25,942 nt of DNA. Source: a virus. Shown here one piece after another: positions 1 to 3,379 of the stretch. The position numbers and the translations under genes are program-made. The stretch covers positions 1 through 25,942 of IMG/VR virus record IMGVR_UViG_3300011188_000013. The stretch is one strand, 5' to 3'. How positions within the stretch are numbered: the first letter of the stretch is position 1; every line of letters begins with the position of its first letter. The notes under the pieces were generated by a model. That model was not told where the DNA came from. It was given only the letters and a program-made list of their open reading frames with translations, and did not search any database.

Positions 1-1556
1 AAGAATCCCATAGCAAAACCAACAATTCCAGCACCTATTGCTGTAATGATACCCATAGGACCCGATAAAAGCCCCATAAGCATACCAAAAATACCACCTT
101 TTTCTTCTTCTTTATCACCAACACCTGACTTCTGATCTCTAATGTCGGTTAATAAATCAATGATAGGTTCCCAAACATTTTCGAACATATCCCTAGATTC
201 TTCGCCTTTATCTTGTGCATCTAAAAGACTACTTTCGTTTTGTTCTCTTGAGTTTTCATTGGTCTTTTCAATTTCTGCTTTAATTTCGGGTACCACTGAG
301 GCAATTTGTTGTAGTAAATCGTCGGGTACTGATTCTGAGTCTGACCCAAAAAAACTTTCTGTGTTAGATAATTTCTTTACTTCTGGTTCTCTTCTAGAAA
401 TTTGAACCATTGTTTCTTCTTGGATTGATGCTGACTGAGGAAGTTCATCATTTTGCATTTCTAGGAAACTAACTACATTATCATAATCTTGATCTTCTTG
501 ATATACTAGTTCTTCGCCACGTTGTTTAGCCAAACTCTTTAGAAGATCTATACTATCAGATAATTTATTCGATATATTATCTGTATTCGATATATTATCT
601 GTATTCGATATATTATCTGTATTCGATATACTATTATCTGTATTCGATATACTATTATTATCTGTATTATTTCTAGTTTCTTTAGTTTCTTCTAAGAGTT
701 TTACTGTATCTCCAGTATTATTTCTAGTTTCGTCTGAAACCACTAGTTCATCATCCGAAACCTGTATAGATTTTAGAAGATCTATACTATCAGATAATTT
801 ATTCGATATACTATTATCTGTATTATTTCTAGTTTCTTTAGTTTCTTCTAAGAGTTTTACTGTATCTTCGGTATTATTTCTAGTTTCGTTTGAAGTCTCC
901 GCTGCATCATCCGAAACCTGTCTAGATTTTATTTGGTCTTGTATATCTTTTTTCGCTTGAATTATTCGTAACTTTCTATCCTTACGCTCAGTAACAAATC
1001 TACGGGTATTCATAAACGTATTCTTAGCACCGTCTATTACAAAATTTGTTAATCCTGTTACTAATGGATTATTATCAGAGAAAAAAGCAGCAGCATTTTT
1101 TGTTAGTGTCTCGGTTTTTTCTAATGCTTGAGATCCTACCTTTTTGAATGATTCTAATAATACGGGATACAGTCCTAATGACCTTTTTAGTGTAGCATTG
1201 GATTGTTCTATATATTTTATGAGAATTTCTTGTTCGTCACCATCTACATCAGATGAGGCTAATATAGCCTTTTTTAATTCTGTTAGTGTTTCTAATAAAG
1301 CACTTTGGTCTTCTTTTGAACTATTACCACCAGCAGCCTCTTCTAATGTCTGAATAATATTAATACCTAAGGAATCAGCAACATTGCTTGTATTACTATC
1401 ATTCAGTTCGGTCGAAAAGTTATCTATAATACTTTTCATAGATAACTGAAACTTATCCGATTTTTTATCATCTGATTCTTGAAAATTATCTAAAGCAACT
1501 TGATTTTGTTGCTTTAGATTTTCAATTAAGGAATTAAATGTTTTTTTATTTTCCAC
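1..1556 (-). CDS. Probable tail tape-measure protein, N-terminal part (runs off left edge)
   Basis: The frame stays open from a GTG at 1556-1554 to the left edge, giving at least 518 residues without a stop. The GTG overlaps the TAG of the upstream -1 frame (TAGTG), so translation is probably coupled. The protein is hydrophilic and rich in Glu, Asn, Ser and Lys. It has helical stretches, an internal duplication, and a run of six-residue ISNTDN repeats at about residues 300-330. A glycine-rich hydrophobic stretch (GIFGMLMGLLSG, then further small and hydrophobic residues) begins near residue 485 and could be a membrane segment. Tape measures are long, helical, carry hydrophobic segments and follow the tail assembly chaperone, which is the layout here. 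In T4 this role belongs to gp29. I infer tape measure from position and composition, not from a recognised domain; the C-terminus, which may carry a peptidoglycan hydrolase, lies outside the window. Confidence 0.6.
   Translation of the reverse strand, partial: MENKKTFNSLIENLKQQNQVALDNFQESDDKKSDKFQLSMKSIIDNFSTELNDSNTSNVADSLGINIIQTLEEAAGGNSSKEDQSALLETLTELKKAILASSDVDGDEQEILIKYIEQSNATLKRSLGLYPVLLESFKKVGSQALEKTETLTKNAAAFFSDNNPLVTGLTNFVIDGAKNTFMNTRRFVTERKDRKLRIIQAKKDIQDQIKSRQVSDDAAETSNETRNNTEDTVKLLEETKETRNNTDNSISNKLSDSIDLLKSIQVSDDELVVSDETRNNTGDTVKLLEETKETRNNTDNNSISNTDNSISNTDNISNTDNISNTDNISNKLSDSIDLLKSLAKQRGEELVYQEDQDYDNVVSFLEMQNDELPQSASIQEETMVQISRREPEVKKLSNTESFFGSDSESVPDDLLQQIASVVPEIKAEIEKTNENSREQNESSLLDAQDKGEESRDMFENVWEPIIDLLTDIRDQKSGVGDKEEEKGGIFGMLMGLLSGPMGIITAIGAGIVGFAMGF
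538..771. repeat. Direct duplication, copy 1 (contains the expanded 18-bp repeats)
   Basis: This copy starts TTTAGAAGATCTATACTATC and ends near CATCATCCGAAACCTGTATAG. It matches the adjacent copy at 772-931 almost base for base outside the 18-bp array. It encodes the same peptide string (EDTVKLLEETKETRNNTDN and SNKLSDSIDLLKS in minus-strand order). It is longer than copy 2 because it carries five ISN units instead of one. Confidence 0.85.
567..667. repeat. 18-bp tandem repeat inside the tape-measure-like gene
   Basis: The 9-mer ATTCGATAT occurs at 567, 585, 603, 621 and 642, so the periods are 18, 18, 18 and 21 bp. The unit reads ISNTDN on the minus strand. The single 21-bp unit has an extra Ser codon, so the frame is always kept. 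The copies are almost identical, which suggests recent expansion by slippage. Confidence 0.9.
772..931. repeat. Direct duplication, copy 2 (short form)
   Basis: This copy begins TTTAGAAGATCTATACTATC and ends at CATCATCCGAAACCTGTCTAG followed by ATTTTA. It has one ATTCGATAT unit at 801. It is collinear with 538-771. A few substitutions (for example CTCCAG against CTTCGG) show the two copies have drifted slightly. Confidence 0.85.
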
Positions 1557-1732
1557 TATGATTTTGCTTTTTGGTTTTCTTTTTCTATATAATCATTTAA
1601 CAATGAAATATAGATATCCCTTTCATAAGGTATTAACATCTCGAGTTCATGTAAAGAATATTTATGATGCTGTATTAGTTGAAATGTTAATATATAATAG
1701 TTGGCCAGGGAATTATGTCCTAGCCCTAACCG
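1556..1732 (-). CDS. -1 frame extension of gp26 (gp51-position tail assembly chaperone segment)
   Basis: This frame encodes 58 residues, ending in a TAG at 1558-1556. It includes NYYILTFQLIQHHKYSLHEL and a PYERDIY motif, and it looks like a real conserved small tail protein rather than chance coding. It has no start of its own: a TAA in the same frame lies at 1744-1742, and the first ATG (1639-1637) comes after most of the recognisable part. No GTG or TTG occurs earlier. The simplest way to make it is a -1 shift at the heptamer at 1738-1732, which joins 238 residues of gp26 to these 58 for a fusion of about 296 residues. In T4, gene 51 (hub assembly) lies next to gene 26. Similarity to gp51 itself is positional only. 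A rare CTG start at codon 12 is the alternative. Confidence 0.72.
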   Translation of the reverse strand, partial: RLGLGHNSLANYYILTFQLIQHHKYSLHELEMLIPYERDIYISLLNDYIEKENQKAKS

Positions 1733-1738
1733 AAAAAA
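1703..1738 (-). promoter_or_regulatory. Programmed -1 ribosomal frameshift signal (slippery site plus stem)
   Basis: On the minus strand the order is heptamer TTTTTTC (1738-1732) in the phase T TTT TTC relative to gp26, then spacer GGTTAG (1731-1726), whose TAG is the gp26 stop. The 5' arm GGCTAGG (1725-1719), a 9-nt loop (1718-1710) and the 3' arm CCTGGCC (1709-1703) follow. All seven pairs form, one of them a G-U wobble. The loop bases ATAAT (1716-1712) could also pair with ATTAT at 1698-1694 to make a weak pseudoknot. The X XXY YYZ heptamer and 6-nt spacing are the canonical geometry for -1 frameshifting. Confidence 0.8.
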
Positions 1739-2445
1739 CTGTTAAGACCTGAAACTACTACTGTTTCCTTTTTATTACACTTAGGGCAAGTTACCTCAAA
1801 TGTTTTTTGGATAGATGGCATCGTTTTGAAAAAATTAGTTATATCTTCAAATTGCTTGTGGCTTAATATATTTAAATATTCCATCAATTCACTTTCTGTA
1901 TGGTCATTAGAACTATAAGTAGTTTCAGCATCGTAGATATAATCTATACAATCTATTATCATCTTATACATTGAATCAACCGAGTCTTTAGCATCATTGT
2001 ATGTGCTTAATAAACTTAAACTAGGATATTTTAAAACAATGCCATCAGTAGCTGTTAACTCAATTTTTGTAGTATGATTTTCATCTCTTTTTATTTCCAA
2101 ATCATGCAAATCTAGTTCAAATTTTACTGTTTTTGGACAACTTTCTTCTTTACAGCCTTTCATCTTCGCATTTAGAATGATTATATTACTTATTGACTTT
2201 GCCCTAAGCTGCGTGAAAATATATTCCATATCAAAAATAGGAAGTTTTTCTGTTTCTATGTCGCTAATTATACAATTTTTTATTAATTGTTTTAGCGCCA
2301 ATATCATATCTTCATCGGTATTAGACTCCATAGCAGTCAAAAGAATTTTTTCTTCTGCTACTAAAAACGGTCTGTATTCGATTTTTTCCCCACTAGAAGG
2401 AAGTGTTAGTTTAAAATGTGGTGTTATTAGTTTTGGTAATGCCAT
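1726..2445 (-). CDS. gp26: Baseplate hub / tail assembly protein, T4 gp26 family
   Basis: The protein has 239 residues (T4 gp26 has 208). It belongs to the T4 baseplate protein family (PF12322 as I recall it). The N-terminus, with LPS..EKIEYRPFLVAEEKILLTA, is the family's characteristic opening. Two cysteine pairs are visible: C-KEES-C in the middle, and CPKCNKK near the C-terminus, the latter looking like half of a zinc ribbon. In T4, gp26 acts in assembly of the central baseplate hub. The start ATG at 2445-2443 lies 10 nt after the gp54-like stop. The last codons (AGT TTT TTC GGT TAG) form a -1 slippery site, so this is probably the short form of a two-product tail chaperone. Confidence is high for the family and lower for its precise role. 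Confidence 0.85.
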   Translation of the reverse strand: MALPKLITPHFKLTLPSSGEKIEYRPFLVAEEKILLTAMESNTDEDMILALKQLIKNCIISDIETEKLPIFDMEYIFTQLRAKSISNIIILNAKMKGCKEESCPKTVKFELDLHDLEIKRDENHTTKIELTATDGIVLKYPSLSLLSTYNDAKDSVDSMYKMIIDCIDYIYDAETTYSSNDHTESELMEYLNILSHKQFEDITNFFKTMPSIQKTFEVTCPKCNKKETVVVSGLNSFFG

Positions 2446-2455
2446 ATTATTATTA

Positions 2456-3379
2456 TTATGAATTTGTGGTTAATGTATTGAATAGTGTACTTGCTACGCT
2501 TTTTAAATTTCCTTCAGAAATTGACTTGGCAAAATATGCCGCTCTTTTTAAGTCTTGCGGTTGAACTGTCTGCATCTTAAAATCTCTGTATGCGAATGTT
2601 ACAGAAAGTTTCATAACAGAAGAGGTAGAATCCCAGGTTAAAGGTATACCTGATACCTGTTTTGGATAAACATCTGAAAAAATTACCTTGAATCTTGTTT
2701 CACCGTCTGGGTCAAAATATACCAATTCAGCATTGGATATTATTTCACTATACCAACCTATGCGAAACTTATTTTCTGCTGCTACATAGGCCGCATTTTT
2801 TTCAAATGTACCTCTATTAAGTTCACCCAACCCAATTTTATTAGATAAAGAATTTAATTGATCCTTTATAGTTTTGTCTAATGTTGCGTTAGAACCACTA
2901 ATAGACTCCAACGGGTTTCCAGAATTATATATCTGATTTTGCCAAAGTTCAAAGAAATACCTTTCAAGAAGACCTGAACGAACATACATTTCTATGGTAA
3001 GTTCATCATTAGTTTTTCCTGTTGGCATCGTGTAACCAGGTCCTGGTCTTGTATAGTCAATTTCTGTATCTATGTTTCTACCTGGTATGCTCACATCAGA
3101 AACAAGAAAAGGAAAATCCTTTGGTATTTCCTTAAGTACTTTATCAGAATAATCTCTCGAATCAGGAACGACAGATGAGATTATTCTGTTTGCCTGGTCC
3201 AGAATCGAAGAGCCATTGTTAGAACCTTGTATAGAACCCGTCAGTGTTGCTGGTGGATAAATGTAAAAGATAAAGTTACTAGTAGAAGCAGGACCACCTA
3301 ACTCATTAATGTTTGCTCTAAATTTTGTTAGATTAAACTGGTCTCTAGGACCTAATAGTGAATTTACTATAATACTCAT
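2456..3379 (-). CDS. gp54: Tail-tube initiator at baseplate, gp54-like (tail-tube fold)
   Basis: The 307-residue protein has T4 tail-tube family features (gp19/gp54): a stretch reading VSDVSIPGRNIDTEIDYTRPGP, then TNDELTIEMYVRSG and FELWQNQI, and a late FRIGWYSEII...FKVIFSDVYPKQV block. It ends on KLSVTFAYRDFKMQ, very like the C-terminal FDVTFAYRVMQ of T4 gp54. T4 gp54 (320 residues) polymerises on the gp48 cap to start the tail tube. Its partner gp48 lies on the opposite strand about 1 kb away. Translation is probably coupled to the upstream gene, since its ATG overlaps that gene's TGA (ATGA). The alternative is a paralogue of the main tube protein gp19. That gene normally lies after gp18 and is outside this window. 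Confidence 0.65.
   Translation of the reverse strand: MSIIVNSLLGPRDQFNLTKFRANINELGGPASTSNFIFYIYPPATLTGSIQGSNNGSSILDQANRIISSVVPDSRDYSDKVLKEIPKDFPFLVSDVSIPGRNIDTEIDYTRPGPGYTMPTGKTNDELTIEMYVRSGLLERYFFELWQNQIYNSGNPLESISGSNATLDKTIKDQLNSLSNKIGLGELNRGTFEKNAAYVAAENKFRIGWYSEIISNAELVYFDPDGETRFKVIFSDVYPKQVSGIPLTWDSTSSVMKLSVTFAYRDFKMQTVQPQDLKRAAYFAKSISEGNLKSVASTLFNTLTTNS

Follow-up and report, generated by a model that had tools for sequence, protein, structure and literature searches.

A probable programmed −1 frameshift joining gp26 to gp51 as short and long tail assembly chaperone forms in an uncultured T4-like marine phage

The window analysed here is the whole 25,942-nucleotide stretch of the IMG/VR virus record IMGVR_UViG_3300011188_000013. 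The minus strand carries, in order, a tail tube-like gene, gene 26, a gp51-like −1 frame and the tape measure gene, an order that places the end of gene 26 where a tail assembly chaperone locus lies. The features of this locus are the following:

2456..3379, minus strand: tail tube-like protein encoded upstream of gp26 (matches phrog_45, tail tube, at E 5e-30)
1726..2445, minus strand: gp26, the zero-frame product of 239 aa, predicted short tail assembly chaperone (TAC-N; phrog_150, PF12322)
1746..1754, minus strand: position of the Shine-Dalgarno-like element of relatives, weak in the window (AGG at 1750-1748)
1732..1738, minus strand: slippery heptamer T TTT TTC, in phase with gp26 (TTTTTTN in phase in 117/117 distinct junctions)
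1726..1728, minus strand: zero-frame stop TAG, within the 6-nt spacer 1726-1731
1703..1725, minus strand: downstream stem-loop, with pairing kept in the relative L062 but not conserved in the wider family
1559..1732, minus strand: −1 frame extension of 58 aa, gp51-like (TAC-C; phrog_634)
3..1556, minus strand: N-terminal part of the tape measure protein, truncated by the window end and identified via a 94%-identical relative

Read directly, the minus-strand 3' end of gene 26 is ...GGT CTT AAC AGT TTT TTC GGT TAG..., and a reading made from this sequence alone had described here an in-phase T TTT TTC, a 6-nt spacer containing the TAG, a 7-bp stem and a 9-nt loop. All of these are present as described, the stem pairing GGCTAGG (1725-1719) with CCTGGCC (1709-1703) around the loop (1718-1710) and including one G-U pair. 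The −1 frame ends at a TAG (1558-1556), so that slippage at the heptamer would yield a gp26-51 fusion of 296 aa. The zero-frame product matches the baseplate hub family phrog_150 (E 9e-65) and Pfam PF12322 (E 1e-59), and the extension matches the baseplate hub assembly catalyst family phrog_634 (E 3e-23); both parts are thus homologous to the T4 gp26/gp51 family defined by these three entries. The identity of the gene that follows comes from the complete tape measure (1047 aa) of the 94%-identical relative L172, which matches phrog_58 tape measure (E 1e-17). The annotated gene after the −1 frame of HTVC008M likewise matches tape measure families. The −1 frame stop TAG (1556-1558) and the GTG that starts the tape measure gene overlap by one base, the last of the TAG, which suggests that translation of the tape measure is coupled to that of the long chaperone form.

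Taken alone, the window says little about the significance of the heptamer. It holds nine in-phase TTTTTTN in about 8,428 codons, an expectation of ~0.011 for the final 10 codons of any one gene, and by itself the motif means little. For the other components, the −1 frame stays open across 58 codons in 23 of 5,000 dinucleotide shuffles, and an equally good stem at the same spacing arises in 0.45% of shuffles, while on folding energy alone 7 of 200 shuffles equal the stem region of the window. It is the comparison with relatives, rather than these single-sequence odds, that confirms the observation.

The relatives were collected from IMG/VR with gp26 alone, which gave 52 loci, 50 of them reaching the gene end, and a set that is unbiased towards the frameshift arrangement. 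All 50 have an in-phase TTTTTT and a −1 frame that stays open past the gp26 stop. A second search with the gp51 part, which is biased towards that arrangement, added 80 loci, and the in-phase heptamer was found in 135/135 of the non-T4 loci scored. It is also in phase in PX29, DLP6, ACP17, IG49, pf16, LPCS28, Yut2, phiM9, Melnitz and P-HM1. Once ten divergent isolates had been added and duplicates dropped, 117 distinct junctions remained, forming 36 clusters at 70% identity, all of them with an in-phase T TTT TTN. The final base of the heptamer varies (C in 88, T in 17, A in 11 and G in one), and its last codon accordingly alternates between Phe and Leu (FF or FL), which indicates that the nucleotides are constrained rather than the FF residues. 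TTT is the first codon throughout, against a background in which 72% of gp26 Phe codons are TTT and 28% TTC, and the base that precedes it is always T (background 39%). The distance from the start of the heptamer to the zero-frame stop ranges from 7 to 34 nt. The gp26 of the window is about 40% identical to that of characterised phages.

Two candidate stimulatory elements accompany the heptamer. Most relatives have a Shine-Dalgarno-like sequence 10-15 nt upstream, the commoner of the two elements among them and one that the sequence-only reading had missed. The 9-mers starting 15-16 nt before the heptamer pair with the anti-Shine-Dalgarno with a mean of -6.2 kcal/mol, compared with -0.1 across gp26, and pairing reaches -5 in 77% of junctions versus 16% of background 30-mers. 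A conserved Glu-Gly accounts for part of this signal; nonetheless, GAG is used in 54 of 86 cases there against a background of 27%, and GGG/GGA codons are also enriched at this position. In the window the element is weak, with about -3.3 kcal/mol at 1746-1754. Its downstream region folds at -11.7 kcal/mol in the 50 nt tested (z about -3), a z that becomes -1.9 over a slightly different stretch. Over the clusters as a whole, the enrichment of downstream structure is modest (mean z -0.98 versus about -0.2 elsewhere, p 0.009). Such structure is strong in S-PM2, S-MbCM7, L077, IG49, ACP17, P-HM1 and the window, and many relatives have none.

The stem of the window is nevertheless a real feature of its sequence. 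The nearest relative, L062, whose extension is 72% identical, carries two synonymous changes within the stem, U-G to U-A and G-C to G-U; both preserve the pairing, and the stem is probably functional in its own lineage. The alignment check proposed by the sequence-only reading therefore has a divided outcome: the heptamer is conserved at the nucleotide level, but the stem is kept in L062 only. As a family-wide feature the downstream stem was rejected, since the structures differ among lineages and many lineages lack them. Overall, no trade-off was found between a weak upstream element and a strong stem (r = 0.25, in the opposite direction), so that any 'replacement' of the Shine-Dalgarno-like element by a stem rests on single lineages. 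The E. coli dnaX gene combines a Shine-Dalgarno-like sequence about 10 nt upstream with a downstream stem, around an A AAA AAG slip site; compared with this cellular gene, the upstream element is dominant in most T4-like lineages and the stem is strong in some only. No Rfam family was found at the frameshift site, the only match in the window being a sub-threshold one elsewhere. This match, to the GP20-b cis-regulatory RNA, lies at 2495-2566 on the minus strand (25 bits versus a gathering threshold of 36.2), just upstream of gp26 and within the tube-like gene; a sub-threshold match is also present in L003 (28.3 bits).

In T4-type phages, gene 26 has neither the heptamer nor the −1 extension. 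In a profile built from the 36 fusions (295 positions), T4 gp51 covers 24-282 and T4 gp26 covers 12-237, its alignment breaking off at the slip site. Thus, T4 gp26 and gp51 are paralogues that match the short and long forms, respectively. Pfam and PHROGs concur: T4 gp51 matches PF12322 over its first 201 residues; its match covers the gp26 family from end to end and the gp51 tail in addition.

Several scenarios may explain this arrangement. Many T4-like records, and most of those in GenBank, annotate a separate gp51, and in some relatives an ATG lies just past the gp26 stop or overlaps it (for example TAATG in KVP40, and S-PM2), as would be expected if gp51 were translated as a protein in its own right, either from its own start or through termination-reinitiation at that stop. 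Yet, in the window, a separate start had to be rejected, as the −1 frame offers no ATG, GTG or TTG until extension residue 32, which lies inside the conserved domain. An ATG or GTG within about the first 20 extension residues is missing in 7 of the 36 clusters; elsewhere its position is scattered and none is shared. The −1 homology starts at the slip site, ahead of any start codon, and the conserved open frame behaves as a second domain without a start of its own. A separate gp51 would also leave the invariant heptamer unexplained, and the full-length fusion seen in T4 gp51 speaks against it as well. This scenario is consequently improbable. The annotation of gp51 as a separate gene would be wrong or incomplete in many T4-like records, and the −1 part is encoded in 554 phage records. 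Public records start gp51 from assorted downstream codons or omit it, and none of those inspected had a joined gp26-51 frame.

The motif could otherwise be a chance T-run, with the apparent frameshift created by a sequencing indel or by gene decay, as runs of T are frequent in DNA this rich in A and T. The comparison of relatives refutes this possibility, whose remaining probability is negligible, because the same arrangement occurs in 36 divergent clusters that include isolates from many sequencing groups. A third scenario would produce both forms by transcriptional slippage on the T6 run, and the slip motif is indeed a homopolymer run in every case. Nevertheless, the strongly placed upstream Shine-Dalgarno-like sequence agrees with slippage by the ribosome, as does the in-phase requirement, and runs of six T are short for polymerase slippage; we consider this scenario very unlikely. 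The programmed −1 frameshift proposed by the sequence-only reading is, on the other hand, strongly supported by the nucleotide-level conservation of the heptamer, the always open −1 frame and the lack of a shared start, and a gp26 frameshift that makes short and long chaperone forms is very probably present in this uncultured phage and in almost all of the relatives compared.

On sequence grounds, gp26 is the short and gp26-51 the predicted long tail assembly chaperone. From the sequence elements, their conservation, the homologies and the gene order, we infer that slippage occurs and at a low rate: gene 26 would encode the short form, and close to its 3' end, at T TTT TTC, a minority of ribosomes would move back by one base, bypass the TAG and add 58 codons to make the long form. 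The probable stimulator of slippage is, in the lineage of the window, the hairpin 6 nt downstream and, in most relatives, the upstream Shine-Dalgarno-like sequence. T4 itself would obtain its two forms from its two paralogous genes, 26 and 51. The precedent is the gpG/gpGT pair of lambda, reportedly described by Xu, Hendrix and Duda in 2004. The lambda gene order V-G-T-H is the same as that of tube, gp26, gp51 and tape measure in the window; the lambda slippery site differs from that of the window, and gp26 is larger than lambda gpG. By analogy with lambda, many short and few long forms would coat the tape measure protein encoded directly downstream, and the extra domain of the long form may help to start the tail tube on the tape measure. 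We infer this chaperone action from the homologies and the gene order, together with what PMC5009743 describes for lambda. PMC3004832 classes T4 gp26 and gp51 as hub assembly chaperones and has gp51 missing from the final particle, both of which fit the chaperone reading. The comparison thus supports the view that the long-puzzling hub 'catalyst' gp51 of T4 is the long tail assembly chaperone. Structurally, the AlphaFold model of gp26 (pLDDT 89) places the HK97 tail assembly chaperone 2ob9 at ranks 4-5 in the PDB, a non-significant match (E 0.7, prob 0.57-0.66), and a PDB sequence search with the gp26 profile found no relative.

The sequence-only reading knew of no description of such a mechanism for the gp26 locus of T4-like phages, but the concept is already published: Vladimirov, Gautam and Davidson (Virology 2022, 566:9-15) identified the chaperone genes of T4-like phages, according to the papers that cite them (PMC10885494, PMC12846349). 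As summarised there, some T4-like phages have one short gene and one longer fusion gene instead of frameshifting (PMC10885494), and the TAC-N genes of T4-like phages carry polyT −1 signals (PMC12846349). In the TAC locus of the Vandenendeviridae and Andersonviridae (phage Adele), a conserved GTTTTT stands at the end of TAC-N and the −1 frame is uninterrupted (PMC12846349). That locus belongs to other phage families and has GTTTTT rather than T TTT TTN. The window shares the short and long form logic and the polyT −1 site with the T4-like TAC-N/TAC-NC genes as the citing papers describe them, and the junction comparison agrees with their description. Unlike characterised T4-like TAC loci, however, it has a weak upstream Shine-Dalgarno-like sequence and a strong, lineage-specific stem. 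The abstract of the 2022 study is said to name T4 genes 26 and 51 and to report frameshifting as conserved in several T4-like groups; this identity of the T4 genes agrees with the Pfam, PHROGs and fusion-profile results.

A different situation is found in eight Ackermannviridae-type phages (Kuttervirus, Taipeivirus, Limestonevirus, Vapseptimavirus and allied; L140, L141, L149, L152, L168-L171). All eight retain a gp51-like −1 frame directly after gp26, and the canonical T TTT TTN heptamer is absent from their gp26 3' ends, which have only xTT TTY, one codon and TAA. In some of these genes the stop overlaps an ATG (TAATG), and the −1 frames of Kuttervirus and Taipeivirus have no start codon before +32. 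It is conceivable, though we would put it at slightly under an even chance, that the T4-like chaperone frameshift uses interchangeable stimulators, mostly the upstream Shine-Dalgarno-like sequence, with a hairpin taking over in lineages like that of the window, and that the Ackermannviridae use another kind of slip site. We found no description of the upstream element, the lineage-specific stems or the heptamer-less Ackermannviridae −1 frame, the full text of Vladimirov 2022 lying outside this comparison. The value of the present analysis lies in the confirmation across uncultured lineages and in the description of the stimulatory elements.

Within the tape measure gene, the minus strand of window positions 560-930 contains degenerate repeats encoding TVKLLEETKETRNNT and SISNTDN units, and the number of these repeats varies between the window and the 94%-identical L172.
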